Shown here: positions 28,347-46,605 of the stretch, piece after piece | Numbering within the stretch: the stretch's first letter is position 1 | How the letters are laid out: each line of letters begins with the position of its first letter | DNA from: Streptomyces sp. PH10-H1 | Lineage (GTDB): Bacteria; Actinomycetota; Actinomycetes; Streptomycetales; Streptomycetaceae | Length of the DNA: 64,000 bases | NCBI RefSeq assembly: GCF_030063355.1 | Contig: NZ_JASISZ010000021.1 | Coordinates: forward strand, 1 to 64,000 | Direction of reading: 5' to 3' | Translations under genes and position numbers: made by a program | The notes under the pieces: model-generated | The model's input: only the letters and a program-made list of their open reading frames with translations | What the model was told of the DNA's origin: nothing | The model's database searches: none

Positions 28347-28467
28347 CGGCCTGCCCTCGATGGGGAGTGGGTGGTCGTCAGCCTGACTCGTCATGGAGTG
28401 CGCCCCACGCACGCTACGGTGGAGCCCCCGGTCGGCTATACGCAAGAGGTGGGGGCAGGGCAGCCCG

Positions 28468-30867
28468 ATGGCACATGGCGTGGTGCAGGTGACCAGCACG
28501 AGCAGCTCGCGGTGGCGCCGCCGAACGGGAGAGTACGAGACTCTGGCCGCGGCCCTGGAAGCGGCCGGTGACGGGGACGTCCTCTCGATCGCGCCGGGCA
28601 CCTACCGGGAGAATCTCGTCGTCAGCCGGGCCGTCACGCTGCGCGCCGCGGAAGGCCTGGGCTCGGTGCGCATCGCCCCCGCCGGCGGGGTGGCGCTGAC
28701 CATACGCGCGGCAGCACTCCTGCAGCACCTGACCGTCGAGGGGCAGGACACCTCGGTGGCCGCCCTGCTCATCGAGGGCTGCGCGCCGGAACTGACCGGG
28801 CTTCGGGTCAGCACCAGATCGGCCGTCGGGATAGAGGTGCGCGACAGCGCCCGGCCCACCGTCCGGCACTGCACCGTGGACAATCCGGCGGGCCTGGGGA
28901 TCAGCGTCCTGGAGTCGGCCGGCGGGCTGTTCGAGGACTGCGAAGTGGTCTGCGCGGGGCAGACCGGCGTCTCGGTACGCGGTGGCGCCTCGCCCCGGCT
29001 GGAGCGCTGCCGCATCCACCACACCTCCGGCGCGGGCCTGGCGCTCACCGACGAGGGCACCTCCGCCGAGGCCGTCGGCTGCGAGGTCTACGAGATCAAG
29101 GGCACCGGCGTGCAGGTCGCCTCGCGCGCCACCGGGCGCTTCACCGACTGCCAGGTGCACCGCACCACCGGCGACGGGATCACCCTCGACACCGACGCGG
29201 TGCTCACCCTGTCCGACTGCGACATCCACGACATCCCCGAGAACGCGATCGACCTGCGGGCCCGTTCGGTGCTCACCCTCACCCGCTCCACGGTGCGCCG
29301 CTTCGGCCGCAACGGCCTCTCGGTGTGGGACCCCGGTACCCGGGTGGACGCCAACCAGTGCGAGATCCACGACAGTACGGGCGACTACCCGGCGGTCTGG
29401 GTGAGCGACGGGGCCGCGGCCGTACTGGACTCCTGCCGGGTGCACGACGTGCCCGACGCCCTGTTCGTGCTCGACCGCGGCTCCCGGGCCGATGTGGTGG
29501 ACAGCGACTTCTCCCAGGTCCGCAACACGGCGGTGTCGGTGAGCGACGGCGCGACCGTCCAGCTCGACGACTGCCGGATCCGTGAGGCCGCCACCGGCGC
29601 CTGGTTCCGCGACCACGGCAGCGGCGGCACGCTGGCGCAGGTCACGATCGACGACACGGCGACCGGTGTCATCGTCACCAAGGGCGCCGATCCGGCGCTG
29701 GAGAACTGCACGGTCACCAATCCCGCGGAGGCCGGTTTCTATGTCTCGGCCGAGGGCCGCGGCACCTTCACCGGCTGCCGGGTCACCGGCAGCCGCGGCT
29801 ACGGCTTCCATGTCATCGACGGCTGCCGCACCACCCTGACCCGCTGCCGCACCGAGCGCTGCGCGCGCGGGGGCTACGAGTTCGCCGAGCCGGGCCCGGT
29901 CACCAAGGACTGCACCAGCGACAAGGCCGCCGAGTACACCCCCGACGCCGGGCAGCAGGTGACCGCGGTGGCCGGCGTGCAGTCGTTCGGGCTGCTGGGC
30001 GGGGTGCCCAAGCAGGGTCCCGCGGAGCCCGCGGAACCGGAGCCCGCGCCGTCGATCCGTGCCTCGGACGACGTGCTGGGCGAACTCGACGCGCTCGTCG
30101 GCCTGGACAGCGTCAAGCGCGAGGTGCGCACCCTCATCGACCTGATCGCCGTCGGCCGGCGCCGGCAGGAGGCCGGGCTCAAGGCCCCGTCGCTGCGCAG
30201 ACATCTGGTCTTCACCGGCTCCCCCGGCACCGGCAAGACCACGGTGGCGCGGCTGTACGGCGAGATCCTCGCCGCGCTGGGGGTGCTGCAGCGCGGGCAT
30301 CTGGTCGAGGTGGCCCGGGTGGACCTGGTCGGCGAGCACATCGGCTCGACCGCCATCCGCACCCAGGAGGCGTTCGACCGGGCGCGCGGCGGGGTGCTGT
30401 TCATCGACGAGGCGTACGCGCTGTCGCCCGAGGACTCCGGGCGGGACTTCGGCCGCGAGGCGATCGACACGCTGGTGAAGCTCATGGAGGACCACCGCGA
30501 CGCGGTGGTGGTCATCGTGGCCGGGTACACCGCCGAGATGGAGCGCTTCCTGGCCTCCAACCCCGGTGTGGCATCGCGTTTCTCACGCACCATCACCTTC
30601 GGCGACTACACGGCCGAGGAGCTGCTGCGGATCGTGGAGGCGCAGGCGATCGAGCACGAGTACCAGCTCGGCGACGACGCGGGCGACGCGATCCTCAAGT
30701 ACTTCAACGCGCTCCCCCGGGGACCTGGCTTCGGCAACGGCCGCACGGCGCGCCAGACGTTCGAGGCCATGGTCGAACGGCACGCGGGACGCCTCGCGCA
30801 CGTCACCGAGCCGAGCCATGACGAACTGCAGCTGCTCTACCCGGAGGACCTGCCCGAACTGCCCTGA
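28468..30867 (+). CDS. Beta-helix / CbxX-type AAA ATPase fusion
   Basis: About 799 residues from ATG 28468. Residues ~20-510 are a right-handed parallel beta-helix with some 18 turns (recurring D-C-x-I, V-x-x-C-x-V, G-I-x-V patterns). Residues ~550-799 are an AAA+ module of the CbxX/SpoVK/EccA type: Walker A G-S-P-G-T-G-K-T (584-591), Walker B V-L-F-I-D-E (643-648), sensor and arginine-finger region F-L-A-S-N-P-G-V-A-S-R-F. No signal peptide, so cytoplasmic. The helix may present a binding surface to a partner remodelled by the ATPase. It ends convergently, overlapping the next gene by 31 bases. Confidence 0.92.
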   Translation: MAHGVVQVTSTSSSRWRRRTGEYETLAAALEAAGDGDVLSIAPGTYRENLVVSRAVTLRAAEGLGSVRIAPAGGVALTIRAAALLQHLTVEGQDTSVAALLIEGCAPELTGLRVSTRSAVGIEVRDSARPTVRHCTVDNPAGLGISVLESAGGLFEDCEVVCAGQTGVSVRGGASPRLERCRIHHTSGAGLALTDEGTSAEAVGCEVYEIKGTGVQVASRATGRFTDCQVHRTTGDGITLDTDAVLTLSDCDIHDIPENAIDLRARSVLTLTRSTVRRFGRNGLSVWDPGTRVDANQCEIHDSTGDYPAVWVSDGAAAVLDSCRVHDVPDALFVLDRGSRADVVDSDFSQVRNTAVSVSDGATVQLDDCRIREAATGAWFRDHGSGGTLAQVTIDDTATGVIVTKGADPALENCTVTNPAEAGFYVSAEGRGTFTGCRVTGSRGYGFHVIDGCRTTLTRCRTERCARGGYEFAEPGPVTKDCTSDKAAEYTPDAGQQVTAVAGVQSFGLLGGVPKQGPAEPAEPEPAPSIRASDDVLGELDALVGLDSVKREVRTLIDLIAVGRRRQEAGLKAPSLRRHLVFTGSPGTGKTTVARLYGEILAALGVLQRGHLVEVARVDLVGEHIGSTAIRTQEAFDRARGGVLFIDEAYALSPEDSGRDFGREAIDTLVKLMEDHRDAVVVIVAGYTAEMERFLASNPGVASRFSRTITFGDYTAEELLRIVEAQAIEHEYQLGDDAGDAILKYFNALPRGPGFGNGRTARQTFEAMVERHAGRLAHVTEPSHDELQLLYPEDLPELP

Positions 30868-33326
30868 ACGGGCAGGCCGGGTGGCGTGGGCGATACGGGC
30901 TGACAGGACGAGGCAGGCAGCACCGGGAGTTCCGCCTCCAGCAGCCGGCGCAGCAGGGCGGTCCGTTCGGCGGCGAACGCCGGGTCCGCCTGGAATCCGG
31001 AGTGGCCCAGGACCGGCTCGGGCAGCGGATGCTCCGGGGTACGGCCGTACGCGACCGGGTCCTTGAGCGGCCCGCAGTCCACCACCGGGCCCTCCGCGAC
31101 CCGCACCGCGCCGCCGATCGGGTCGGTACGGCGCCACAGATTGCGCCACGCGCTCAGCTCACGGTGCAGCGACCGTAACTGCGGCGGGCCGAAGTACGCG
31201 GGGAACCACCGGCCGTAGAGCCGCTCCAGCGGACAGCCGTAGGTGAGCAGCGCGATACGGCGCCGGGTCGCCGGGTCCAGCTGCCAGACGGCGGCCGCCG
31301 CGAGGACGCTGCCCTGGGAGTGACCCGACAGGATGATCCGGCCGCCGGTGCGGGCGGTCCAGGTGGCCATCCGCCAGGTGAGGTCGGGCACGGCCCGTTC
31401 CGCGTAACAGGGCGGGGCGAACGGGTGGGCGGCGCGCGGCCAGAACGTGCCCACGTCCCACAGGATGCCGACGGTCCGGCGCGCGGAGGCGTCCCGGTAG
31501 GCGCGCCGCCCGAGCGCCAGCAGGGCGACCACGCCCGCACCGACCAGCCATGACCCCAGCGCCTGCGCCTGCTGTGCCACGTCCGGCAGCGGCCCCGGAG
31601 TCCCCTTCGCCGCCTCCCCGGGACCGGCCCCGCCGGTCCACGCACCCACGACCGCGCCCGCGCCGAGCAGGAACGCCACCGTGCAGACCACCGCGACCAG
31701 CAGCGCGAGGGAGTCGGTCAGCCCGGCGCGTGCGATCGCCCCGGCGATCTGCCGGGTACGGGCCGGCTGCCGGCTCTCCCCCGGGTACAGCCCGGCCATC
31801 TCCTTGCCGATGGCCACCCGCTCCCGCCACAGCCGCCACGCCCCGACGGCCACCACTCCCGCCAGGACGACCAGCAGTACGGGAATGATCGACGCCTGCC
31901 ACGTCAGCAGCACCGGCGGCCCCTGCAGTGGTCCGCCGTCCTGCCCCGGCGTCGCCCCCCGGTCCAGCCAGTCCGCTATCCGCTGGCAGGCACCGCCCGA
32001 CAGCACCCCGCCCAGCGCGCACGCGAGCAGCGCCACCGCGGGCCCGCCGAGCCCGTGGAGCACCGCCCGCCCCGGGTGCCCACCGGGGGCATGGCCGTCC
32101 TCCACGTGCTCGGCGGGACCCTCCCCTTCGCCCCGGCCGGTCGGCAGCCCGTTCGTCGATGACCCGGCGGTCTGGTGCGGGACCGCCGGGGCTGCCGCGC
32201 GCGGGCTGTCGGCCGCGCGGTGCATGAGAGCCGCTGTCACGGCCAGGGCGGCGATCAGGGCGCCCTGGAGGAGGGTGAGGGCGGTGAAGGTGGCGGCGGC
32301 CGGGAGGCGGCCGGTGGAGGTCCATCCGGGGCGGTGCCAGCCGGCGTAGAGGGCGGCGGCGACCAGGGCGGCCGGGCCGCCGCCCAGCAGAAGGTGGGCG
32401 GTGTGGTGGTCCGTGGCCTCGTCCCGTTCCGTCTCGCTGCGCCCTGCGCGGCAGATCTCGGTGACCGTGGCGGCGGCGAGGACGGCGAGCAGCCCGGCGA
32501 GGGCCCAGCCGATGACGCCGAGCGCGCCCTGCCCGCGCTCGTGGTCGTAGTGGAGCGTGGGCACCAGCAGCGCCGTCGCGGCGGTGAGGGCGCCTGCGGC
32601 CGTGTGCGCGGAACGGAGCCGGGCGACCAGGCGGCGGCCGTACCAGAAGCCGGGCAGCGCGAGGGCGGGCGCGCCGGGCCGGGGCCGGTTGTCGGCGGCC
32701 GGGCGCTGCGACTCGTAGGCGTACCAGGTCCGGTGGGACAGCCACCACAGCAGTGCGGTGAGCGCGCCGGGCACCAGCGCGGAGAGGGCGAGGCGGCGGC
32801 CCGGCTCTGACCACCAGCCGCCCCCGTACGCGGCGGCGAAGCCGAGCCAGTACTTGCCCCGGACACAGCCGGCGGTGCCCGCGCACTGCCAGCCGACCAG
32901 GTCCATCGCGACCTCGCAGACGGCCGCGACCAGCGCCAGCGTCAAGGTGAGCGCGATGAGCCGCACCAGCACGTCATAGGCGCGGTTCAGACCCGCCCGG
33001 CCGGTCGGCGGCCGCATCCAGTGGGCGAGGTTGGCGACCATGAAGGGCAGCAGGAGCAGCCACATGGCCCGGCTGCCGTTGCCCGAGGTCAAATTGCACC
33101 AGGTGTACGCCTCCGGTACCGGCGCTTCCTGGTGGGCGCCGGGGTGGAGCTCGGCGTCGGCGTCCACGGTGCGGCGGTAGATCCCGGCCGTGTCGTCGCC
33201 CGCCACCCGCACGGTGCGCGGATCGCCGAGCATCCGCTCGGGCGTGGCGCCGCCGACGCCGTGAACGAGCAGTTCGAGTGCGAGTGCCCGCGTGTCCGCG
33301 GCCTCAGGTCCAGGGTGCAGGTTCAC
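30837..33326 (-). CDS. Large integral-membrane protein with C-terminal hydrolase domain
   Basis: About 829 residues from GTG 33326 (GGGGGGAC upstream). Near the N-terminus is L-L-V-H-G-V-G-G, then at least ten hydrophobic segments. The C-terminal ~220 residues contain G-H-S-Q-G-S (668-673), the nucleophile elbow of an alpha/beta hydrolase. The split of H-G-V-G-G (possible oxyanion strand) from the Ser motif by the membrane region suggests a lipase-like domain with a very large membrane insertion. Substrate unknown; lipid is a guess. Convergent and overlapping with the beta-helix/AAA gene. Confidence 0.8.
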   Translation of the reverse strand: MNLHPGPEAADTRALALELLVHGVGGATPERMLGDPRTVRVAGDDTAGIYRRTVDADAELHPGAHQEAPVPEAYTWCNLTSGNGSRAMWLLLLPFMVANLAHWMRPPTGRAGLNRAYDVLVRLIALTLTLALVAAVCEVAMDLVGWQCAGTAGCVRGKYWLGFAAAYGGGWWSEPGRRLALSALVPGALTALLWWLSHRTWYAYESQRPAADNRPRPGAPALALPGFWYGRRLVARLRSAHTAAGALTAATALLVPTLHYDHERGQGALGVIGWALAGLLAVLAAATVTEICRAGRSETERDEATDHHTAHLLLGGGPAALVAAALYAGWHRPGWTSTGRLPAAATFTALTLLQGALIAALAVTAALMHRAADSPRAAAPAVPHQTAGSSTNGLPTGRGEGEGPAEHVEDGHAPGGHPGRAVLHGLGGPAVALLACALGGVLSGGACQRIADWLDRGATPGQDGGPLQGPPVLLTWQASIIPVLLVVLAGVVAVGAWRLWRERVAIGKEMAGLYPGESRQPARTRQIAGAIARAGLTDSLALLVAVVCTVAFLLGAGAVVGAWTGGAGPGEAAKGTPGPLPDVAQQAQALGSWLVGAGVVALLALGRRAYRDASARRTVGILWDVGTFWPRAAHPFAPPCYAERAVPDLTWRMATWTARTGGRIILSGHSQGSVLAAAAVWQLDPATRRRIALLTYGCPLERLYGRWFPAYFGPPQLRSLHRELSAWRNLWRRTDPIGGAVRVAEGPVVDCGPLKDPVAYGRTPEHPLPEPVLGHSGFQADPAFAAERTALLRRLLEAELPVLPASSCQPVSPTPPGLPVQGSSGRSSG

Positions 33327-33558
33327 ATGTCCCCCCGTCGTACCGTGCTGCGTGCTGCCGTGCTGCCCTGCCGTCCCAGGATCGGGGTCCCGGCGGGCGG
33401 GCGCAGCCCTCCGTGCGGAAGGTGACCCGAAATCGTGACAAGAACGCACGGTGCGGTATCAGTCACCCGCCGCACACCCTTGGCCCTCCCGCATGGAAGG
33501 ATGACCGTGGTTCGATGGCGGTCAACGAGACGGATGAGACGATGGGAAAGGGCCTCGG

Positions 33559-34395
33559 GTGAGCGACAACCAGAATCTCCTCGCGGAGCAGCGGCGCGCC
33601 CTGATTCTCGACGAGGTCAGGCGACGCGGCGGGGTGCGGGTCAATGAACTCACCCGGAAGCTGAACGTCTCGGATATGACGGTTCGCCGCGATCTGGACG
33701 CGCTGGCCCGGCAAGGGGTCGTGGAGAAGGTGCACGGCGGCGCGGTGCCGGTGATCGAGGCGAGCAGCCATGAGCCGGGCTTCGAGGCCAAGTCGAGCCT
33801 GGAACTGGGCGCGAAGGAGGCCATCGCACGGGCCGCCGCCAGGCTGGTGACGCCGGGCAGCGCCATCGCCCTGTCGGGCGGCACGACGACGTACTCACTC
33901 GCCCACCGCCTGCTGGATGTGCCGGACCTGACCGTGGTGACCAATTCGGTGCGGGTCGCCGATGTCTTTCACACGGCGCAGCGGCGCCCGGGCGCGCAGA
34001 GCCGGGACGGCGCGGCGACGGTGGTGCTCACCGGCGGTGTGCGAACGCCGTCGGACTCCCTGGTGGGTCCGGTCGCGGACCGGGCGATCGGCTCGCTCCA
34101 TTTCGACATGCTGTTCCTGGGTGTGCACGGGATCTCGGTCGAGGCCGGACTGTCGACGCCGAACCTGGCGGAGGCGGAGACCAACCGGCAGTTCGTGCGG
34201 TCGGCCCGCCGGGTCGTGGTGATCGCCGACCACACCAAGTGGGGAACGGTGGGGCTGAGTTCGTTCGCCTCGCTAGAGGACGTGGACACGCTGGTGACGG
34301 ACGCGGGCATCCCCGAGGTGCTGCGCGCGGAGATCTCCGAGTATCTGTCGGACCTGGTCGTCGCGGGTGAGACGGGCTCCTCCGCAGACAGCTGA
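33559..34395 (+). CDS. DeoR-family transcriptional regulator
   Basis: 278 residues from GTG 33559. DeoR HTH (L-I-L-D-E-V-R-R-R-G-G-V-R-V-N-E-L ... V-S-D-M-T-V-R-R-D-L-D-A-L) then the DeoR sensor domain (I-A-L-S-G-G-T-T-T-Y ... V-V-T-N-S-V-R-V-A ... L-T-G-G ... G-I-S-V-E-A-G-L-S-T-P-N-L ... A-D-H-T-K-W). Such regulators usually repress sugar-phosphate pathways and respond to phosphorylated sugars. There is no metabolic gene directly beside it; the SRPBCC gene starts 24 bases downstream. Confidence 0.92.
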   Translation: MSDNQNLLAEQRRALILDEVRRRGGVRVNELTRKLNVSDMTVRRDLDALARQGVVEKVHGGAVPVIEASSHEPGFEAKSSLELGAKEAIARAAARLVTPGSAIALSGGTTTYSLAHRLLDVPDLTVVTNSVRVADVFHTAQRRPGAQSRDGAATVVLTGGVRTPSDSLVGPVADRAIGSLHFDMLFLGVHGISVEAGLSTPNLAEAETNRQFVRSARRVVVIADHTKWGTVGLSSFASLEDVDTLVTDAGIPEVLRAEISEYLSDLVVAGETGSSADS

Positions 34396-34964: not shown

Positions 34965-37900
34965 CTACGCCTCGCGCGACAGCCGCAGGGTCCTGATCTC
35001 GAAGGGGCGCAGCGCCAGTTCGACGTCGGAGCCACGGGTGGCGGCCTCACCGGTGGGACGTTCCAGCAGGTCGCACACCGTGGCCGACGCCATCGCGAAC
35101 CCCGTGGTGAGACGGGCCCTGGCCCGGCCGCCGCCGGACTCGTACAGCCGCACCACCACATCACCGCTGCCGTCGTCGGCGAGCTTCACGGCCGTCACCA
35201 CGACCGCGTCATGGTCGACGGACACCAGCGGCGCGACCGCCGTGCCGCCCGGCACCCGGCGCTCGGGCAGGTTGATCCGGTAGCCCTCGCGCACCGCGTC
35301 GCCGATCGCGGCGCCGGGCACCAGTGCGTAGCGGAAGCGGTGGGTGCCCTGGTCGGTGTGGGGGTCGGGGAAGCGCGGGGCGCGCAGCAGGGAGAGCCGG
35401 ACGGTGGTGGTGGTACCGCCGGTCAGCGAGGTCTCGGCATCCGGGCGCACGGTGCGGGTCACGTCGTAGCCGTACGTCGAGTCGTTGACGACGGCGACTC
35501 CCCAGCCGGGCTCCTCCAGATGGACGAACCGGTGGGCGCATGCCTCGAACTTCGCTGCGTCCCAGCTGGTGTTGGTGTGGGTAGCCCGGTAGAGGTGGCC
35601 GAACTGGGTCTCGGCGGCGGTCCGGTCGGCGTGCAGATCGAGCGGGAACGCGGCCTTGAGGAACTTCTCGGTCTCGTGCCAGTCCACCTCGGTGGCGATG
35701 TCCAGCCGGCGTTCTCCCGCCCGCAGGGTGAGCACCTGCTCCACCCGGGAGGACCCGAAGCCGCGGGTCACCCGGACGGCGGCCGCGGCACCGCCGACCG
35801 CGTCCAGCTCCAGAATGTCGACATCGGTGAGGTCGGTGACCGTGTTGCGGTAGAACGTGTCGACATCCCAGGCATCCCAGCGGTTGGGGAAGTCGGGGTG
35901 CAGCTGCAGGAGATTGGCGGCGGAGCCCGGCGCGATGGTCTCCCGGCCGGCCGCGGTGTCGTAGACCGAGACGACGAGTCCGCGTTGGTCGACGGCGACC
36001 CGCAGCAGCCCGTTGTCGAGCACGAAACCGCCGCCCTCGCGCGGCGCGGCCGTGACCGGAGCACCGGTGTAGGGCACCGCGACGACGGCGCCGCCCGCCG
36101 GGACGCCGGAGCGGGTGTGCGGAGCCGCGTTGAACAGCACGGAGGTGCCGGCGGCCGGGTCCCCGGCGAGCGCGGCCTGCGCGTCACCGATGATCCGCTC
36201 CAGTTCCCCGGCGACGGCCGCGTACTTCGCCTCCGCCTCACGGTGCACCCAGGCGATGGACGAGCCGGGGAGGATGTCGTGGAACTGCAGCAGCAGCACC
36301 GTCTTCCAGATCCGGTCCAGATCCTCGTACGGATAGCGGAATCCGACCCGCACGGCCGCGGTGGCCGCCCACAACTCGGCCTCCTTCAGCAGGTGTTCGC
36401 TGCGGCGGTTGCCCTGCTTGGTACGGGCCTGACTGGTGAGCGTGGCCCGGTGGAGTTCCAGGTACAGCTCCCCCACCCACACCGGGGCGTCCGGGTACTC
36501 GGCGTGGGCCTTCTCGAAGAACGCCGACGGAGTCTCGAAGACGACCCTCGCCGAGCCCTCAAGGTCCGCCAGCCGCTTGCCGTGCGCGAGCATCTCGCGG
36601 GTGGTGCCGCCACCGCCGTCGCCCCAGCCGGTCGGGGCCAGCGACCGGGTCGCGGAGCCCTTCTCCTGGAAGTTGCGGACGGCGTGGGCGACCTCCTTGC
36701 CCGACAGCTGGGCGTTGTAGGTGTCGATGGGCGGGAAGTGGGTGAAGACCCGTGTGCCGTCCAGGCCCTCCCACCAGAAGGTGTGGTGCGGGAACTTGTT
36801 GGTCTCGCTCCAGGAGATCTTCTGGGTCAGGAACCACTTGGCGCCGGCTTGCTTGACGATCTGCGGGAGCGCGGCCGAGTAGCCGAACGTGTCGGGCAGC
36901 CACACCTCTTCGGTGTCGATGCCGAACTCCTCCAGGAAGAACCGCTTGCCGTGCACGAACTGCCGTGCGAGCGCCTCGGATCCGGGCATGTTGGTGTCGG
37001 ACTCCACCCACATGCCGCCGACCGGTACGAACCGGCCTTCCGCGACGGCCTTCTTGACCCGTGCGTACACCTCGGGCCGGTGCTCCTTGATCCAGGCGTA
37101 CTGCTGCGCCTGCGACATGGCGTAGACGAACTCCGGCTCCTCCTCCAGCAGCGCCGTCATGTTGGAGATGGTGCGCGCGACCTTGCGCACGGTCTCCCGC
37201 AGTGGCCACAGCCACGCCGAGTCGATGTGCGCGTGGCCCACCGCGCTGATGCGGTGCGCGGATTGGTGGGCGGGCGCGGCGAGGACCTCCGCCAGCCGCT
37301 CGCGGGCGGCGGCCGCCGTGCCGCCGACATCCTGCAGGTCCACGGCGTCCAGCGACCGCTCCACGGCCCGCAGGATCTCCCAGCGGCGCGGTGAGTCGGT
37401 GGACAGCTCCGCCATCAGCCCGCCGAGCACCTCCAGATCCTGGACCAGCTCCCACACCGTCGGGTCGAAGACCGCGAGATCCATCCGGGCGAGCTTGTAC
37501 TGCGGCTCGTCGCCCGCGGTGTCCGTGTCGCCGAGGTCGGTGGGCAGGAAGGGGTGGTAGTCGAGCAGCACGGGGTTCGACGAGGCCTCGATGTGCAGTT
37601 CCACGCTCTCGCCGCCCGCGACGGGCGCACCGATCCGGATCCACTGGTTGCGCGGGTTGAGCCCCTTCACCGGCGAGCCGTCCGCCCGGTACACCAGGCC
37701 CTCGCACTGGAAGCCGGGCATGTTCTCGTCGAACCCGAGGTCCAGCAGCGCCTCGACGGTCCGGCCGGCCCACTCGTCCGGCACGACTCCGGTCACGGTG
37801 ATCCAGCTGGTGCCCCACGGCGGGCCCCACGGCTCGCCGGTCTCGATGGGCGTACGCGGCGCCACCAGGCCCTCGGCCACCGGGACCGGCTCGCCGGGGG

Positions 37901-38012
37901 CGTTCCAGATCCCGATGTCCAGCGGAACCGACTGCGGGTAGACGGCGGGGCGGATGCGTTCGTCGAGGACCCGCTTGAGCCGGTCCTCGGTGACGGTGCG
38001 GTTGCTGTGCAT
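34965..38012 (-). CDS. Alpha-mannosidase, GH38
   Basis: About 1015 residues from ATG 38012, the usual size. Catalytic domain motifs: G-H-A-H-I-D-S-A-W-L-W-P-L-R-E-T (zinc-binding His and Asp), and W-L-P-D-T-F-G-Y-S containing the nucleophile Asp. The helical middle (F-H-D-I-L-P-G-S-S-I) and C-terminal beta domains follow. No signal peptide, so it should hydrolyse alpha-mannosides in the cytoplasm after import. Last gene of the N-glycan operon, 14 bases after what looks like the original end of the GH85 gene. Confidence 0.94.
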   Translation of the reverse strand: MHSNRTVTEDRLKRVLDERIRPAVYPQSVPLDIGIWNAPGEPVPVAEGLVAPRTPIETGEPWGPPWGTSWITVTGVVPDEWAGRTVEALLDLGFDENMPGFQCEGLVYRADGSPVKGLNPRNQWIRIGAPVAGGESVELHIEASSNPVLLDYHPFLPTDLGDTDTAGDEPQYKLARMDLAVFDPTVWELVQDLEVLGGLMAELSTDSPRRWEILRAVERSLDAVDLQDVGGTAAAARERLAEVLAAPAHQSAHRISAVGHAHIDSAWLWPLRETVRKVARTISNMTALLEEEPEFVYAMSQAQQYAWIKEHRPEVYARVKKAVAEGRFVPVGGMWVESDTNMPGSEALARQFVHGKRFFLEEFGIDTEEVWLPDTFGYSAALPQIVKQAGAKWFLTQKISWSETNKFPHHTFWWEGLDGTRVFTHFPPIDTYNAQLSGKEVAHAVRNFQEKGSATRSLAPTGWGDGGGGTTREMLAHGKRLADLEGSARVVFETPSAFFEKAHAEYPDAPVWVGELYLELHRATLTSQARTKQGNRRSEHLLKEAELWAATAAVRVGFRYPYEDLDRIWKTVLLLQFHDILPGSSIAWVHREAEAKYAAVAGELERIIGDAQAALAGDPAAGTSVLFNAAPHTRSGVPAGGAVVAVPYTGAPVTAAPREGGGFVLDNGLLRVAVDQRGLVVSVYDTAAGRETIAPGSAANLLQLHPDFPNRWDAWDVDTFYRNTVTDLTDVDILELDAVGGAAAAVRVTRGFGSSRVEQVLTLRAGERRLDIATEVDWHETEKFLKAAFPLDLHADRTAAETQFGHLYRATHTNTSWDAAKFEACAHRFVHLEEPGWGVAVVNDSTYGYDVTRTVRPDAETSLTGGTTTTVRLSLLRAPRFPDPHTDQGTHRFRYALVPGAAIGDAVREGYRINLPERRVPGGTAVAPLVSVDHDAVVVTAVKLADDGSGDVVVRLYESGGGRARARLTTGFAMASATVCDLLERPTGEAATRGSDVELALRPFEIRTLRLSREA

Positions 38013-38143
38013 GAGGGTGGGTTTCCTTAGTTCCAGGTGAACGCGGCAGCGGACGGGTTCGAGGAGGTGAACAGCTCGCTGACGGCGCGGACTTCGAGGC
38101 GGGTGGCGGGCTCGCCCGCCGTGCGCCGCAGCGCCGGCACGTA

Positions 38144-40144
38144 CTACGCCGTACCGCACGTCCCGCCGAGGAAGCGCCGGCCGCCTCCGGGCAGCACCTG
38201 GTGCACCTCGTAGTGGCGGACCGGACCGGGCGAGCGGCCCCAGCGGATGCGCAGGGCGGCCGTGGCACCGTCCGCGGCGGGGAGCGCGCCGGTCACGGTG
38301 AGCGCGCCGGGGCGGCCGGGCGCCTTCGCGGCCGCGTCACGCACCGCGAGACCGCCGAGCCGCCAGCGGACCGCCGTGCCACCGGATCCGGTCAGCCGCA
38401 CTCCCAGGACGTGGATGACGCTGCCGCGCGGCTGCCGCAAGCGCACGGTCGCCGTGGTCCAGCCACAGCCGCCCGCCGGGAGGGCGCCGGCGGGGAGGTA
38501 GGTGAAGCGCGGCGGCTTCCCCGGCGCGCCGGGCTCGTCCAGGGCGACGGCCACGTCCACCCGGACCGGGCCGGAGCCGGGGTCGGTGCGGTGGGTCAGC
38601 TCCGCCACGGCGCCGCCGGTCAGCGGCAGCCTGGCACCGAACAGCTCGACGGTGGCCGGGGCGTCGAGCACGCCGTCCACCAGCAGGCTGCTGCCGCCGC
38701 GCCAGGCGTCGGCGAAGTCGAAGCCCGCCCGTGGGCGGGTGCCGGTGCTGCGCACCACCCAGCGGCGTCCGGGCAGCCGGTCCTGCAGCCCGAGGTGGTT
38801 CCAGGCGGTGTCCGAGACGGGTGCGCCCCGTTCGTACCAGCGCAGTCCGTGACCGGTGTTGAACGTGGTGGCGAAGGGCAGCGCGGTGAGGGTGGAGCGG
38901 TCGGCGACGGATTCGGCGGGGGCCCGCCAGTCCCCCGTGCCGCTCTGCGGCGCCGAGGGATCCAGTGACGGCCCGGTCCAGAACCGGTCGTCGCGCAGAT
39001 GGAAGTCGCCGGGTGCGCGCCGGTCCGCCGGAAGGCTGGTCCAGGTCCATTCGGGGCGGTAGAAGCCGTACGAGGTGACATGCGGCCGGCCGGCGGGGAC
39101 GATCGCGTCCCAGTCGGCCGGTGTGTCCCAGCCGCGCGACTCCACATCGATGCCCGCCCACACCTCGTAGCGGCTGCGGTCCAGCTGTCCGGCGAGGCTG
39201 CCGGAGGCGGCGAGGCCTGCCCGGCTCCAGTCGAAGTTGACGAACATCGAGTCGGCGGCGCTGAAGAACTCCTGGTTGCGGGGGTTGAGTTCGTTCTGCC
39301 AGTCGACGGCTCCGGTGTCGGTCATCGCGTCGTACCAGGTGACGCGCAGGCCGTGGCCGTGGTCGCGCAGGTACTCGACGAAGTCCCGCATGGCGGCGGC
39401 GAGCGGTGCGTCCCCGCCTCCGGTCTCGGCGTTGAGGAACCAGCCGTCGAAGCCGTAGACCCGCGCGACCCGGATCAGCTGGTCCGCGATGGGGAAGCGC
39501 CCGTCGGCGTCGCGCTGGACGAGGTCACGGGTCCAGCGCAGGTCGCCGCCGTACGCGGCCGGGGGCAGGAAGACGGTGCCGAGTACGGGGACCCCATTGC
39601 GGTGCGCGGCGTCCACCACGGGCGCGTTGGGCGCGAGGATCAGGCCCTCGCCCGAGGAGCCGCCCCAGAACACGAGCTCGTCCAGGTACGCCCAGTGCGT
39701 CAGCGCGTAGTAGTCGGCGGTGGCGGAGCCCTGGGAGGGGTTGCCCGCGGTGTGGTCGAACGCGGCCAGGCCCGAGACCCGCGCCTGGCCGGTGCGCGCG
39801 GTCGTGTTGGCGGGCGTGGGCGCGAAGCGCCCGGCGAGCGGGACACTCGATGTGTTGAACGCCAGATCGGGGTCGGTCTCGGGCGTCCAGGCCTTGAGGC
39901 TGCGCCAGGTGATGCCGTCACCGGGGGTTCCGGAGGGCAGGCTGTCGGGAAACCAGTAGGAGGCGTAGGGCTGCAGGTTCCGGGCCGCGCCGGCCGCGGC
40001 GGCCGCCCCCGGCAGGCCACCGGGTGCCAGCAGGAGGCCCACGGTGCCCGCCCCGGCGATCAGGACCCGGCGCCGTGTCGGGCCCGGGCGGTCGGACGTG
40101 AGGGGGCCGGAGGCGGAGTCGGCAGAGCTGCTGTGCTCGGTCAT
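38144..40144 (-). CDS. Endo-beta-N-acetylglucosaminidase, GH85, with early TAG stop
   Basis: 666 residues from ATG 40144 (AGGGAG upstream). A Tat signal (T-R-R-R-V-L-I-A-G then a hydrophobic stretch, cleavage near A-A-A at about 48-53) sends it out folded. The GH85 domain holds G-F-D-G-W-F-L-N-A-E, with catalytic Asn238 and Glu240 acting by substrate-assisted hydrolysis of the GlcNAc-GlcNAc core of N-glycans. Two beta-sandwich regions follow. The frame ends at TAG (38146-38144) after G-T-C-G-T-A, but continues in the same frame for 38 sense codons (Y-V-P-A-L-R-R ... F-T-W-N) to TAA at 38029-38027. TAC-to-TAG is the simplest explanation. The last beta-strands would be missing. Confidence 0.88.
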   Translation of the reverse strand: MTEHSSSADSASGPLTSDRPGPTRRRVLIAGAGTVGLLLAPGGLPGAAAAAGAARNLQPYASYWFPDSLPSGTPGDGITWRSLKAWTPETDPDLAFNTSSVPLAGRFAPTPANTTARTGQARVSGLAAFDHTAGNPSQGSATADYYALTHWAYLDELVFWGGSSGEGLILAPNAPVVDAAHRNGVPVLGTVFLPPAAYGGDLRWTRDLVQRDADGRFPIADQLIRVARVYGFDGWFLNAETGGGDAPLAAAMRDFVEYLRDHGHGLRVTWYDAMTDTGAVDWQNELNPRNQEFFSAADSMFVNFDWSRAGLAASGSLAGQLDRSRYEVWAGIDVESRGWDTPADWDAIVPAGRPHVTSYGFYRPEWTWTSLPADRRAPGDFHLRDDRFWTGPSLDPSAPQSGTGDWRAPAESVADRSTLTALPFATTFNTGHGLRWYERGAPVSDTAWNHLGLQDRLPGRRWVVRSTGTRPRAGFDFADAWRGGSSLLVDGVLDAPATVELFGARLPLTGGAVAELTHRTDPGSGPVRVDVAVALDEPGAPGKPPRFTYLPAGALPAGGCGWTTATVRLRQPRGSVIHVLGVRLTGSGGTAVRWRLGGLAVRDAAAKAPGRPGALTVTGALPAADGATAALRIRWGRSPGPVRHYEVHQVLPGGGRRFLGGTCGTA

Positions 40145-40154
40145 CGTGCGCTCC

Positions 40155-41408
40155 CTAAAGGTGTTCGACCTGCTCGACGGTGAAGACATCGGTGATGCCG
40201 CGGGCCGCCAGGTGAGCGGCGTCACCGGCGAGTTCGGCGAGTACGGCGGTGGGGCGGGCGCCGTCGGCCGCCAGTCGCATCCATGCCTCGAAGAAGGCCC
40301 CGCCGGGCGCGCACACCGACCGGGCCGGCGCGCTCACGCTGTCCCCCACGTCCACCACCAGCGCGGTGGTGCGCGGCGCCGGGCGGTGCTCGCGCCCCCG
40401 CCAGTGCTCGACGGCGCGGGCGACGGCCTCGCCCGCGGGCTTGACCTTCCGGTCGGTGGTGAGCAGGCCCAGGCTGTACTCCAGCTCGGGGAAGTCGGCG
40501 AGCGCGCGGTCCACGTCGTGGGAGCACCACCAGGTGATGCCCCAGACGTCCGGGCAGTCCAGCGCTGCCTCGATGGTGGCCGTGGTGAACTCGGCGGCGT
40601 GCCCGGCCGGGATGTGCGGGGCGGGCGCGCCCACTTCCTGCAGCCACACCGGGCGGTGCGGTTCGGTGGCCCAGGCCTTCGACAGCTCGATCAGGTAGGC
40701 GGCGTGCTGCTCGGTGGCGGTGCCGGTACGGCCGTGGCGCTGCGCGGTGCCGTTGAACACCCAGGAGTGAACGGCGGTCGCGGCACCCAGCCGGGCGGAG
40801 TGGCCGGGGGTGAAGGGGTGGTCGTCCTGGTACCAGGCGGCGTCGTAGGACGCGTGGAGATGGAACTTGCCCGGCGCGCCCTCCTCGCACGCGCCCAGCA
40901 CCCGCCGCAGCCAGGACTCGGCCTGGGCGGGGGTGATCCGGTCGGGGTCGGGGTGCGGACCCGAGGAGAACTGGTTGATCTCGTTGCCGATGGTCATGCC
41001 CAGGAAACCGGGCCGGCCGGCGAGCGCCGCGGCGAGGGTGCGCAGGTAGTCGGCCTCGCCGTCGATGACGTCGGGGTCGGTGAAGAGATTGCGGCGGTGC
41101 CAGGTGGTGGTCCAGGAGGGGATGAAGTCGAAGCTGGACAGATGGCCCTGGAGTCCGTCCACGGCGGTGTCGAGTCCGCGCTCGGCTGCCGCGTCCACGA
41201 GCTGGACCAGCTGCTCGACGGCGCGCGGCCGGATCAAGGTGCGGTTCGGCTGGAAGACCGGCCAGAGCGGGAAGACCCGGATGTGGTCGAGGCCGAGGGC
41301 GGCGATGGAGTCCAGGTCGGCGCGGACTTCGTCGAGGTCGAAGTCGAGCCAGTGGTGGAACCAGCCGTGCGTGGGCGTGTAATTGACGCCGAAGCGCATT
41401 GCGTTCAT
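40155..41408 (-). CDS. Beta-mannosidase-like glycosidase, GH5_18 type
   Basis: 417 residues. TIM-barrel glycosidase: M-R-F-G-V-N-Y-T-P at strand 1, I-G-N-E-I-N-Q-F with acid/base Glu143, V-W-L-Q-E-V-G with nucleophile Glu258, and I-T-W-W-C-S-H-D. It looks like GH5 subfamily 18, whose members cleave Man-beta-1,4-GlcNAc, the disaccharide left when N-glycans are cut by GH85 and trimmed by alpha-mannosidase. No signal peptide. It ends 10 bases before the GH85 start. The subfamily call rests on resemblance and context. Confidence 0.82.
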   Translation of the reverse strand: MNAMRFGVNYTPTHGWFHHWLDFDLDEVRADLDSIAALGLDHIRVFPLWPVFQPNRTLIRPRAVEQLVQLVDAAAERGLDTAVDGLQGHLSSFDFIPSWTTTWHRRNLFTDPDVIDGEADYLRTLAAALAGRPGFLGMTIGNEINQFSSGPHPDPDRITPAQAESWLRRVLGACEEGAPGKFHLHASYDAAWYQDDHPFTPGHSARLGAATAVHSWVFNGTAQRHGRTGTATEQHAAYLIELSKAWATEPHRPVWLQEVGAPAPHIPAGHAAEFTTATIEAALDCPDVWGITWWCSHDVDRALADFPELEYSLGLLTTDRKVKPAGEAVARAVEHWRGREHRPAPRTTALVVDVGDSVSAPARSVCAPGGAFFEAWMRLAADGARPTAVLAELAGDAAHLAARGITDVFTVEQVEHL

Positions 41409-41441: not shown

Positions 41442-42284
41442 TCAGCCCTTGACGGCGCCTTCGCCCACGCCGCGGAAGAAGTACCGCTGCAGGCAGGCGA
41501 ACATGACGATGAGCGGGGCTACAGCGATGATGGTCCCGGCGGCGACGAGCCTGGGGTTGTTGGCGAACGTGCCGTGCAGGAAGTTGAGCCCGACGGTCAG
41601 CGTGTATTTGTCCGGGTCGGACAGCACGATCAGCGGCCACAGGAAGTCGTCCCAGGCGCCCATGAACGAGAAGATCGCCACGACCGCCAGCGTGCCCTTG
41701 ACCGAGGGCAGCGCGATCCGTACGAAGCGCTGCCAGACATTGGCTCCGTCGATGACGGCGGCCTCCTCGATCTCGTACGGGAGGTGGCTGAAGGCGTTCC
41801 GCATCAGCAGCACATTCATCGCGCCGATGCAGCCGGGCAGCACGACGGCGACGAGGGTGTTGTTCAGCTGCAGATCACGCATGGTGGTGAACTGCGCGAT
41901 GAAGATGGACTCGAACGGCACGAGCAGCGCCATGACGAAGGCGGTGCCGGCGAGTTTCCGCCCCCGGAAGCGCAGCCGGGCGAGCGCGTAGCCGGCGAGT
42001 GAGGCGCCCACGCAGTTGGTGACGACGCTGGCGACCGCGACCTTGAGCGAGTTCAGGGCGTAGTCCCAGACGGGGATGATGTCGGCGACGCCCGAGTAGT
42101 TGTCCAGCGTCGGATGCTCGGGGAGCAGCTTCGGCGGGTAGCTGTACATGTCCTCGGTCGGGCCCTTGAGCGAGGTGCTCAGCTGCCACAGGAACGGGCC
42201 GACGGTGGCGGCCAGTACCCCGAGCAGCAGGAGGTACCGGAGCACGATCTCCCAGCGGCGCATGCGGCTGCCCATGTCACTCAC
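41442..42284 (-). CDS. Carbohydrate ABC transporter permease (MalG type)
   Basis: 280 residues, six membrane helices. The cytoplasmic EAA loop reads Y-E-I-E-E-A-A-V-I-D-G-A-N-V-W-Q-R-F-V-R-I-A-L-P, and the C-terminus R-Y-F-F-R-G-V-G-E-G-A-V-K-G is typical of MalG-type permeases. It overlaps the upstream permease by 8 bases, so translation is coupled. No ATPase in the operon; a shared MsiK-type ATPase is expected in Streptomyces. Confidence 0.94.
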   Translation of the reverse strand: MSDMGSRMRRWEIVLRYLLLLGVLAATVGPFLWQLSTSLKGPTEDMYSYPPKLLPEHPTLDNYSGVADIIPVWDYALNSLKVAVASVVTNCVGASLAGYALARLRFRGRKLAGTAFVMALLVPFESIFIAQFTTMRDLQLNNTLVAVVLPGCIGAMNVLLMRNAFSHLPYEIEEAAVIDGANVWQRFVRIALPSVKGTLAVVAIFSFMGAWDDFLWPLIVLSDPDKYTLTVGLNFLHGTFANNPRLVAAGTIIAVAPLIVMFACLQRYFFRGVGEGAVKG

Positions 42285-43152
42285 CGTCCTTGCGGTCGGC
42301 GCGCAGCACCAGCAGCATCAGGACCAGGGTGACCGCGAAGATCACCACGGAGAGTGCGGAGGCGTATCCGGTACGCCCCGACAGCCCGGTGCCGACCCGC
42401 TGGACCAGCATGACGATCGTGGTGTCCTCGCCGGCCGGTCCGCCGGTCGGACCGGCCATCAGATACACCTCGGTGAAGACCTTGAAGGCCGCCACCGACG
42501 ACAGCGCGCCGACCAGCACCATGGTGGAGCGGACCGCCGGGACGGTGATGCTGAGGAAACGGCGGACCGCTCCCGCGCCGTCCACGGCGGCCGCCTCGTG
42601 CAGCTCCTTCGGCACGTTGGTCAGCGCCGCCAGGTAAATGATCATGTAGTAGCCGAGGCCCTTCCACACCGTCAGCGCCATCGCGCTGAACAGCAGCAGC
42701 CACTGGTTGCTGAGGAACTCCACCGGGCCGGTCCCGAAGTAGCCGAGGATCCCGTTGACCAGCCCGCGGTCGTCCAGCATCCACACCCAGATCAGCGCGA
42801 CCACGACGACCGAGGCGACGACCGGGGTGTAGAAGGAGGAGCGGAAGAACGCGATGCCGGGGACCTGCTTCTGGACGAGCAGGGCCAGCAGGAGCGGTAG
42901 CAGCACGGTGCAGGGCACCACGAGCAGCACATACAGACCGCTGTTGCGCAGCCCCGTCCAGAACTGCTCGTCGTCCAGCATGTCCTGGAAGTTCCGCAGC
43001 CCCACCCAGTGGCCGGGGGTCAGGGTGCGGGCGTCGGTGAAGGCCGTGCCGACCGTGCTGATGAACGGGTAGAGGCTGAACGCGGCGATGATCACCAGGC
43101 CGGGCAGCAGGAACAGCCAGGGGCTGGCGGCCCGGTGGGTCCGTGCACTCAT
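42277..43152 (-). CDS. Sugar ABC transporter permease (MalF type)
   Basis: 291 residues, six helices beginning W-L-F-L-L-P-G-L-V-I-I-A-A-F-S-L-Y-P. EAA loop: P-K-E-L-H-E-A-A-A-V-D-G-A-G-A-V-R-R-F-L-S-I-T-V-P. It pairs with the next permease as the membrane channel of a CUT1-class importer for oligosaccharides. 15 bases separate it from the binding-protein gene. Confidence 0.94.
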   Translation of the reverse strand: MSARTHRAASPWLFLLPGLVIIAAFSLYPFISTVGTAFTDARTLTPGHWVGLRNFQDMLDDEQFWTGLRNSGLYVLLVVPCTVLLPLLLALLVQKQVPGIAFFRSSFYTPVVASVVVVALIWVWMLDDRGLVNGILGYFGTGPVEFLSNQWLLLFSAMALTVWKGLGYYMIIYLAALTNVPKELHEAAAVDGAGAVRRFLSITVPAVRSTMVLVGALSSVAAFKVFTEVYLMAGPTGGPAGEDTTIVMLVQRVGTGLSGRTGYASALSVVIFAVTLVLMLLVLRADRKDGE

Positions 43153-43167: not shown

Positions 43168-44499
43168 TCAGCTCTGCTTGAGCAGCTTGTCGCTCTGGCT
43201 GACGGCGTCGTCCAGAGCCTGCTGCGGCGACTTCTTGCCCTGCAGCGTCTTGGCCACCTCGTTCTTGAGGATGGTCTTCATCTCGTCGGTCATCACCACC
43301 GGCGTGTAGTTCACCGCGCCCTTGAGCAGCCGCGCGGAGGCGACCCGGACCCGGCCCTCGTCGGTGCCGTCGTCCTTCGTCCAGTACTCCTGGTCCAGCG
43401 ATCCGGCGGTGCTCGGGAAGATCGCGACCTTGTGCGCGAAGGACTCCTGGTTCTGCTTATCCGTGATGAAGTGCGCGAAGGCGATGGCGGCCGCCTTGTG
43501 CTTGCTCTGGCTGTTCACCGCCATACCCATCACATACATGTTGGGGTGGCCGGTGTTGTTGGGCGCGTCGGTGATGCCGAGGTTCTTGTACAGGTCGGGC
43601 GCGTTCTGCTTGAAGGTGCCCAGGTCGTGCGCGCTGCCCGGGTTCATCGCGACCTTCTGCTGCAGGAACTTCTGGCCCACGGCGTCCGGTCCGCTGGTCA
43701 GCGCCTGGGAGTCGAGACCGCCGTTCTTGAACAGCTCCTGGTACTTGGTGAGCAGCTCCACGCCCTTGGCGTCGTTGTACGTGAACTTGGTCGCGTCCGC
43801 GTTCATCAGCGGGACGCCGTAGCGGCCGAAGTCCTCGATGGACGGGGTGCCCGCGAGGGTGGCGGTCTTCCCGCCGGACTTCACCGCGATGGTGTTGGCG
43901 TCCGCGAAGAGCTCGTCGTAGGTCTTCGGCGGCTTGTTCGGGTCGAGTCCGGCCTGCTGGAACAGCGTCTTATTGTAGAACAGCGGGCCGGTGTTGAGGT
44001 ACCAGGGGAAGGCGTACGAGCCCTCCAGGCCCGGCAGTTCATTGCCCTTCCACGCCTCCGGCGTGTAGTCGCCCTTGAACTTGGCGCTGGCGGGCTCCTT
44101 GTCCAGACTCATGATCACGCCCGCCTTGGCCAGCGGGTACGACAGGTCGGGCGAGACGTTGACGACGTCGGGGAGCGTTCCGCCGGCCGCGTCCGCGCTG
44201 AGCTTGTCCGCGTAGTTCTCGGCGGGCTGGTCGAGCCACTTCACATGGACGCCGGGGTTCTGCTTCTCGAAGTCCTTGGCCAGGCCCTCGAAGTAGTCCT
44301 TGTAGTTCGCCCGCAGGTTCCAGGTCTGGAAGCTGATGTCGCCCTCGATCTTGCCGTCGGCGCTGCTCCCGCCGCTGTCACCGCCGGAGCCGCAGGCGGT
44401 CAGCGTCAGCGCGGACAACAGGAGGGGCAGGACCGTGATGGCCGTTCTACGAGTGGTTCCACGGGCGGTGCCACGGAATCTTCCACGGGATACGGACAT
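43168..44499 (-). CDS. Sugar ABC transporter binding lipoprotein
   Basis: 443 residues from ATG 44499 (GGAG 10 bases upstream). Lipoprotein signal with positive n-region, hydrophobic core and lipobox L-T-A-C (Cys36). The mature part is a CUT1 type I binding protein: D-I-S-F-Q-T-W-N, F-E-K-Q-N-P-G-V-H-V-K-W, L-P-D-V-V-N-V, Y-A-F-P-W-Y. It presumably captures mannose-containing oligosaccharides outside the membrane. First gene of the operon, divergent from the LacI regulator across an operator with two half-sites. Confidence 0.94.
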   Translation of the reverse strand: MSVSRGRFRGTARGTTRRTAITVLPLLLSALTLTACGSGGDSGGSSADGKIEGDISFQTWNLRANYKDYFEGLAKDFEKQNPGVHVKWLDQPAENYADKLSADAAGGTLPDVVNVSPDLSYPLAKAGVIMSLDKEPASAKFKGDYTPEAWKGNELPGLEGSYAFPWYLNTGPLFYNKTLFQQAGLDPNKPPKTYDELFADANTIAVKSGGKTATLAGTPSIEDFGRYGVPLMNADATKFTYNDAKGVELLTKYQELFKNGGLDSQALTSGPDAVGQKFLQQKVAMNPGSAHDLGTFKQNAPDLYKNLGITDAPNNTGHPNMYVMGMAVNSQSKHKAAAIAFAHFITDKQNQESFAHKVAIFPSTAGSLDQEYWTKDDGTDEGRVRVASARLLKGAVNYTPVVMTDEMKTILKNEVAKTLQGKKSPQQALDDAVSQSDKLLKQS

Positions 44500-44639
44500 G
44501 GCTGACAAGCTCCTTCGCTCGGGCCAGGAGGGGGGGCTGGGTAAGGCTGCACCCGCGTCCGCCGCATCGTCAACGGTTCTCGCGCAATGAATTCAAGAGT
44601 CCTCATATACCTGCAGGTCAGATCGGTTTCGACAGAAAA

Positions 44640-44722: not shown

Positions 44723-45775
44723 ATGGATCCCGTGCGCCGCACTCCGGCCCGCCGACCGACGATGAAGGACATCGCGCAGCGCGCGGGCGTCTCCGAGAGC
44801 GCCGTGTCCTTCGCGCTCAACGACCGCCCCGGTGTCTCCCCCGCCACCCGCGACCGGGTCCGCCGCGTCGCGGAGCAGCTCGGCTGGCGCCCCAGCACCG
44901 CGGCCCGCGCGCTGTCCGGCGAAGGAGCCGCCACCGTCGGCCTGGTGCTCGCCCGGCCCGCGCACACGCTCGGCGTCGAATCGTTCTTCCTGCAACTCGT
45001 CTCGGGCATACAGGAGGTGCTGGCGCAGCGTCATCTCGGGCTGCTCTTCCAGGTCGTCGGGGATCTGGACGAGGAGTGCGCGGTCTACCGCCGCTGGTGG
45101 GCCGAACGCCGGGTCGACGGCCTGCTCGTCGTCGACCCCCGTCTCGACGACCCCCGCCCGGAACTGCTCGACGAACTCGGCCTGCCCGCCGTCATCATCG
45201 GCGCCCTCGCGCCGGGCGCGCCCGGCCACCCCGGCATCTCCACCGTGTGGGCCGACGACGCGGGCGCCATGGCCTCCATCGTCGACCACCTCCACGGTCT
45301 GGGCCACCGCCGGATCCTGCACATCGCCGGTCTCCCCCATCTCGCCCACACCCAGCGCCGGGTGCGCTCACTGCGCGCCGAGGCCGACCGCCGCGGGCTG
45401 CCCGACGTCCACTCCATCAGCACCGACTACTCCGACACCGAGGGCGCCGAAGCCACCCGCCGCGCCCTCGCCCGCCCCCGGCCGCCCACCGCGATCGTCT
45501 ACGACAACGACGTCCTCGCCATGGCCGGCCTGGCTGTCGCCAACGAACGCGGCCTCGCCGTCCCCGGCGACCTCTCCCTCGTCGCCTGGGACGACTCCGT
45601 CCTGTGCCGCAGCGCCCATCCCGCCCTCACCGCCCTGGTCCGCGACACCAGCAGCTTCGGCCGGCACGCCGCCGAGCAGCTCCTCAGCCTGCTCGACGGC
45701 AACCCCGCCCGCGAGATCCAGGACGACCTGCCCCGCCTCGTGGCCCGCGCCAGCACCGGTCCGCCGGCCGGGTAA
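44723..45775 (+). CDS. LacI-family transcriptional regulator
   Basis: 350 residues from ATG 44723. LacI HTH and hinge: T-M-K-D-I-A-Q-R-A-G-V-S-E-S-A-V-S-F-A-L-N then R-P-S-T-A-A-R-A-L-S-G. The ligand domain follows with D-G-L-L-V-V-D, A-I-V-Y-D-N-D-V-L-A-M-A-G and S-L-V-A-W-D-D-S. Divergent from the N-glycan operon; presumably a repressor released by an imported mannoside. Confidence 0.94.
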   Translation: MDPVRRTPARRPTMKDIAQRAGVSESAVSFALNDRPGVSPATRDRVRRVAEQLGWRPSTAARALSGEGAATVGLVLARPAHTLGVESFFLQLVSGIQEVLAQRHLGLLFQVVGDLDEECAVYRRWWAERRVDGLLVVDPRLDDPRPELLDELGLPAVIIGALAPGAPGHPGISTVWADDAGAMASIVDHLHGLGHRRILHIAGLPHLAHTQRRVRSLRAEADRRGLPDVHSISTDYSDTEGAEATRRALARPRPPTAIVYDNDVLAMAGLAVANERGLAVPGDLSLVAWDDSVLCRSAHPALTALVRDTSSFGRHAAEQLLSLLDGNPAREIQDDLPRLVARASTGPPAG

Positions 45776-45790: not shown

Positions 45791-46605
45791 TCAGCGGTAT
45801 TCGGCCAGTCGCGGGCGGACGCCCAGCAGGACGAGGGCCGCCGCGGATGCCAGGGCGGACGCGGGGACGGCGGGCCAGCCGGCGAGTGCCGAGCAGGCGC
45901 TGTCGGTGTGCAGGACGAAGTCGCCCCGCTGGTGGGCCGCCAGCGCGTCGAGCGTGGTGGCGAAGTCCCAGAAGTCGAAGGCGACCTGGTCGCGGCCGAC
46001 TTCGGTGAGGACGACGACGGCCTCGTCGACCCGCCCGGCGGCGCGCAGGGCGCGCAGATGGCCGTCGTCGGCGCGGAAGTGGCCGTAGCGGGTGAGGACG
46101 TCCTGGTAGGCGGGGCGTTCGGCGGGCGTCGCGTACGAGGCGGGGGCGAGGAGTTCGTCCAGGCGGTGGGTGAGGGCGTCGAAACGGTCACGCTGGATGG
46201 TGGCGGAGTCCGCGTCGTGGACGAACCAGCGTCTGCGTGGCGGCGGAGTCCGCTGCGACCTCGCGGGCCTCGGCCAGCCGGGACCAGGGACGCAGGCCCT
46301 CCTGTCCCGCGGCACTGATGTCGGCCGCTGCCGAGGCGAAAGCCAGGGAGCCGGACAGGGTGATGGCGACGGCGGCGCCCGTGGCGGCGAGCAGCGGGTT
46401 TCCCGCCGCACGGCCGGGCTGGCTCTCGTCCACGTGGGACGAGCGGGCGCTGGCGTCGTCATAACGGCCGAGCGCGTCGAGCAGGGACCGCACCCGGTCG
46501 CCCTGGCCGGGGTCGGCGCCGAGCTGTCGCACCAGGCCGCTGACCTCGGCACGGCGCTGCTGCGCGGTGATCAGGGCGAGCAGCCGGCGAAATGCGTCGC
46601 CGCCG
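45791..46605 (-). pseudogene. Frameshifted membrane protein gene downstream of the b561-like gene
   Basis: Two frames together encode one plausible protein. The first half (46605 to about 46230) reads D-A-F-R-R-L-L-A-L-I-T-A-Q-Q-R-R-A ... then a membrane helix L-L-A-A-T-G-A-A-V-A-I-T-L-S-G-S-L. The second (about 46231 to 45791) reads W-F-V-H-D-A-D-S-A-T-I-Q ... F-D-F-W-D-F-A-T-T-L-D ... and a final helix V-P-A-S-A-L-A-S-A-A-A-L-V-L-L-G. The join near 46230 (T-Q-T-L / W-F-V) needs one or two extra bases. No good start codon is seen in the first frame; it begins overlapping the previous stop. Family not recognised. Confidence 0.65.

Follow-up and report, generated by a model that had tools for sequence, protein, structure and literature searches.

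A premature TAG codon near the 3' end of a GH85 endo-beta-N-acetylglucosaminidase gene in a Streptomyces N-glycan-use operon, probably a recent nonsense substitution

The window (the whole stretch of 64,000 nucleotides that was analysed) contains a run of genes on the minus strand in which a GH85 endo-beta-N-acetylglucosaminidase frame, interrupted by a TAG codon, lies between the genes for two mannosidases. In the order of the minus strand, preceded by the divergent regulator, the features are:

44723 to 45775, plus strand: LacI-family regulator, divergent (PF00356, PF13377)
43168 to 44508, minus strand: ABC sugar-binding protein (PF01547)
42277 to 43152, minus strand: ABC sugar transporter permease (PF00528)
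41442 to 42284, minus strand: ABC sugar transporter permease (PF00528)
40155 to 41408, minus strand: GH5_18 beta-mannosidase, 417 aa, intact (766 bits to ScGH5_18, 7lr7)
38144 to 40144, minus strand: GH85 endo-beta-N-acetylglucosaminidase frame, truncated (PF03644; likely start, placed from the relatives' matches)
38144 to 38146, minus strand: premature TAG at codon 694 of the mechanical ORF, a column with sense codons in the orthologues
38030 to 38143, minus strand: conserved C-terminal tail of 38 codons, the last strands of an Fn3-like domain
38027 to 38029, minus strand: TAA at which the relatives' frames also stop, overlapping the TAAGGAAA stretch just ahead of the GH38 start
34965 to 38012, minus strand: GH38 alpha-mannosidase, 1015 aa, intact and with no internal stop (PF01074, PF07748, PF09261, PF17677)

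The locus combines GH5_18 and GH38 genes with ABC importer genes, as in the N-glycan degradation operons of actinobacteria, for which Higgins et al. 2021 is reportedly a source. The GH5_18 gene ends 10 bases before the GH85 ATG and is 95.7% identical in G019, which together with G007 is the closest relative; the window is collinear with both genomes, with gaps, from ~14 to 63.7 kb. The N-glycan-core locus of Cutibacterium acnes (C. acnes), as described in passages of PMC6160142, has a GH38/GH5_18 pair with transporter genes. Loci of this type and the present operon have GH5_18, GH38, ABC transporter genes and a regulator in common, whereas the present operon contains a GH85 endoglycosidase, with a premature stop.

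Several other observations were made in the window and the genome. At 45797-46589 on the minus strand there are split and shortened matches to a 476-aa ORF of both close relatives with no Pfam match, which may represent either a remnant or an ORF arising by chance. The plus strand at 28393-30864 encodes an 824-aa protein in which right-handed beta-helix repeats are joined to an AAA ATPase with an AAA lid domain. The ORF survey of the window against the relatives was rough, its filter missing the relatives' own GH85 gene, and a second candidate pseudogene that it gave nearby (a 1086-aa ORF of G019, split with stops at 30864-34233 and without a Pfam match) was rejected as an artefact of this crude filter because it overlies a frame coded on the opposite strand. 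Elsewhere in the genome, four of 129 MFS_1 matches have one in-frame stop (two TGA and two TAG; C66:89296, C22:61029, C192:22302 and C222:27600 in assembly G000) and at several MFS places the match is divided over more than one frame, e.g. C183:24199-25364; these stop-bearing or split genes are decayed genes or assembly errors.

The GH85 frame reads ...G-T-C-G-T-A on the minus strand and then reaches TAG at 38146-38144, behind which 38 in-frame sense codons (Y-V-P-A-L-R-R ... F-T-W-N) lead to TAA at 38029-38027, with the GH38 ATG (38012-38010) 14 bases past this TAA. The preliminary description had placed both stops and spelled out the tail peptide exactly, and its 38 codons and 14-base gap were confirmed. 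The mechanical ORF starts at GTG 40225; the GH85 gene likely starts at ATG 40144 (ORF residue 28), at which the matches of both closest relatives start, which leaves 666 sense codons up to the TAG and a product of 666 residues as read compared with 705 residues without the TAG. Near the N-terminus lies TRRRVLIAG, which we take to be a twin-arginine-like signal. The frame contains a GH85 catalytic domain (PF03644, E 3.4e-86, 289.9 bits with a cut-off of 22.2) at ORF residues 164-463, i.e. entirely upstream of the TAG, and the catalytic Asn-x-Glu pair is kept: N265 and E267 are invariant across 34 sequences and align with the N-x-E of Endo-A (3fha). The assembly (G000) is a draft of 8,544,745 bases in 237 contigs, and the best matches of the GH85 gene are from Streptomyces. 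Searching this genome with PF03644 gave one GH85 match, and a compensating second GH85 copy was rejected on this ground.

The orthologue set combined the best 80 of 193 confirmed places in a public genome collection with the genus-group genomes, and 81 of its loci were counted (L004, L005 and L007-L085). L006 was excluded from the count because its match and tail are identical to those of L004, and L010 was set aside since a stop lying after the start of its match left a frame of only 14 residues, although the match extends to query residue 731. In all 80 full-length Streptomyces orthologues that remain (among the best 80 of 193 places and the genus group), the TAG column is a sense codon: 39 Tyr (36 TAC, 3 TAT), 24 Phe (TTC), 6 Leu, 5 Ala, 3 Cys and one each of Thr, Ser and His. 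The column is followed by 37 residues in 71 of the 80 orthologues and by 38-44 in the other nine, compared with 38 in the present gene. Conservation in the tail is highest at E705, S722 and W731 (80/80) and at R713 and E717 (79/80), and the present gene retains all five. Because the alignment to all 80 full-length orthologues is gap-free at and beside the TAG column and W731 is the last shared residue in every one of them, the TAG-interrupted frame is more than a chance reading frame.

The closest relatives, G007 and G019, have 86% protein identity to the GH85 product, TAC at the column, no indel and a matching C-terminal peptide that also ends with TAA; they share the neighbouring genes and the GH38 junction as well. 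Streptomyces orthologues (e.g. that of S. fildesensis INACH3013, 86%) have the same gene, but without a stop at the column. Among the matches listed in a DNA search of 61 genomes, those of gene length beyond the own genome came from G007 and G019 only, and the others were short and look like chance. The GH85 gene is present in three of the 35 genus-group genomes, the own genome included, indicating that the operon is patchy in genus group g1. Taken together, the orthologues continue past the column, which the preliminary description had named as the comparison to make, and in this alignment the assembled gene has the pattern of a nonsense-mutated gene (a recent pseudogene): its stop stands at a column that is sense in 80/80 orthologues, and conserved sequence lies behind it.

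The proposal that a single TAC-to-TAG change at the third base explains the stop is supported by the TAC of both closest relatives in an alignment that is gap-free at the column. This exchange falls in the C<->G class, which is the commonest third-base difference to G007 (86/150, leaving aside the TAG column and the initial 59 codons). Duplication of the three bases GTA, suggested by the local GTAGTA, was also considered; the lack of a gap at the column relative to the 80 orthologues points to a substitution instead, and the two consecutive tyrosine codons in both closest relatives likewise contradict a duplication.

In the comparison with G007, dN/dS is ~0.21 in both the tail (0.095/0.447) and the body (0.071/0.331) of the GH85 gene. 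Constraint is weaker in the tail than in the body in the comparisons with the more distant relatives L007 (tail 0.240/0.588, body 0.186/0.714) and L008 (tail 0.325/0.539, body 0.177/0.649); the values between G007 and L007 are 0.221/0.735 for the tail and 0.190/0.572 for the body. Polarising the changes with 14 outgroups gave, as synonymous/nonsynonymous changes, 40/20 on the own branch and 22/23 on the relatives' branch for the GH85 body, 2/4 and 5/2 for the GH85 tail, 45/16 and 41/13 for GH38, and 13/7 and 7/1 for GH5_18. For the body, Fisher's test of own against relatives' branch (p 0.07) leans towards a more constrained own branch, and the test of own tail against own body gave p 0.18. 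By its five intact positions and its dN/dS relative to G007, the tail is conserved coding sequence; the body is free of decay, its polarised changes carrying no sign of long relaxation. Relaxation of the tail may have begun, with counts over 37 codons that are too small to decide. The selection figures fit alike a recent stop, a stop that is not a true stop and a stop that is absent from the organism.

The last of these readings, in which a base-call or assembly error conceals a sense codon and a normal GH85, is the main rival to a nonsense substitution. It fits the data too because the evidence is a single draft assembly in 237 contigs, and a single third-base difference suffices for it; the rest of the gene is under ordinary constraint without decay, and the stop comes from one isolate of a genus group in which few genomes have the gene. 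Isolated substitution errors are rare in short-read assemblies of non-repeated sequence. In the tblastn matches the GH85 frame has no further stop, and nothing specific counts against an error. On balance, we regard an error as unlikely and a true nonsense substitution as the better account.

Alternatively, the TAG could be real, with read-through frequent enough to be useful and to yield the full-length enzyme, as the preliminary description had allowed. The equal dN/dS of tail and body relative to the closest relative would agree with this, although a recent stop predicts the same. An RF00005 search gave 66 tRNA places in the own genome, and ARAGORN made 88 calls on the 62 loci covering them, with repeats from overlapping loci, and 66 calls for 66 places when run place by place; none of the 66 places has a CUA anticodon, and a tRNA that is atypical or lies in an assembly gap could escape this search. 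The stop itself is conserved in 0/80 orthologues, contrary to what programmed read-through would lead one to expect, and the RNA fold of the 201 nt surrounding the TAG has ordinary stability (z -1.22, 30/200 shuffles as stable). Among the matches listed, literature searches on stop codon readthrough in Streptomyces and on C-terminal deletion of GH85 enzymes gave nothing directly on this case. Read-through gained no positive support, and we consider it highly improbable.

Which part of the protein would be missing after termination at the TAG can be assessed from Endo-A of Arthrobacter protophormiae (GH85; 2vtf, 3fha, 3fhq), the best solved relative, with which the present protein shares the N-x-E pair. 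The match to Endo-A scores 363 bits for the truncated and 381 bits for the read-through protein, and in the alignment to 2vtf the read-through protein reaches chain residue 615 and the truncated protein residue 583, ORF residues 691-723 aligning with Endo-A 583-615. A structure model of the read-through protein built from 34 sequences is of moderate quality as a whole (mean pLDDT 67.8, pTM 0.69), with higher confidence in the Fn3 part, where 10-residue blocks are at 79-95 from residue 641 onward; it superimposes on Endo-A with Z 30.2 and rmsd 3.4 over 584 aligned residues, and its residues ~633-732 match fibronectin type III domains (Z ~10-11). The modelled C-terminal strands are 643-649, 655-661, 671-677, 683-689, 693-700, 707-715 and 725-730. 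Since the TAG is at residue 694, the last three of these seven strands lie at or after the stop and would be removed, in agreement with the loss of final beta-strands foreseen in the preliminary description; the destabilisation that it had named as a possible result of this loss is a prediction.

The present frame stops within the part that matches domain 3 of Endo-A. According to the portions of PMC2646837 that describe it, domain 3 consists of 363-386 and 525-611, has elements resembling Fn3 and is interdigitated with domain 2, and the paper on Endo HS alpha (PMC12961652) describes domains I to III as shared features of the GH85 family. Translated with the standard code, the present frame breaks off within the Fn3-like domain, and domains I-III are incomplete. 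Given the lost Fn3-like strands, the interdigitation of domains 2 and 3 and the conservation of domains I to III, the truncated GH85 likely has a folding defect, as judged from the modelled structure. The PF03644 stretch lies wholly before the TAG, and some activity could therefore survive. A truncated protein that is still functional, so that the stop is a neutral shortening, would accord with the complete catalytic domain and its invariant N265 and E267; the domain architecture reported in the cited portions of both papers and the presence of the tail in 80/80 orthologues argue against it, and we find this very unlikely.

At the GH85/GH38 junction, 38010-38029 on the minus strand reads TAAGGAAACCC...ATG, with GGAAA directly on the normal GH85 stop. 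The arrangement TAAGGAAACC...ATGCACAGCAACCG (TAA-GGAAA-ATG) is the same in G007 and has one extra base in G019, and the spacing is varied in other orthologues. From its sequence, GGAAA could be the GH38 ribosome-binding site, and its position on the normal GH85 stop suggests translational coupling of GH85 and GH38. The GH38 match starts at most 200 bases from the GH85 stop in 72/80 orthologue loci; of the other eight, one has it at 209 (L046), two end soon past the gene (L048, L081) and five are without a downstream GH38 match.

Combining these data, we consider it quite probable that a recent, lineage-specific nonsense substitution has occurred near the 3' end of the gene for a secreted GH85 in an otherwise intact N-glycan-use operon. 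In this model, ribosomes would stop at the TAG and release a product without the last 39 of 705 residues and with an Fn3-like domain that lacks three of its seven strands. With these strands missing, the secreted GH85 would probably be unstable or inactive. Extracellular glycan release would then be lost, with the import and trimming genes retained, and termination 117 nt early may also weaken the coupling to GH38, whose GGAAA adjoins the normal stop. A different role for the amber codon, as a leaky or conditional switch under which most of the GH85 would be truncated and a small amount full-length, and by which termination tunes the coupled translation of GH38, strikes us as extremely improbable.

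For annotation, our favored model of a recent nonsense substitution means that the gene should be flagged as the carrier of a premature stop and not as a normal short GH85, and little beyond that. Should the substitution be real, the strain may have lost extracellular N-glycan release, yet keeps the genes for import and trimming, and it would provide a small natural experiment on whether GH85 enzymes can do without their C-terminal domain.
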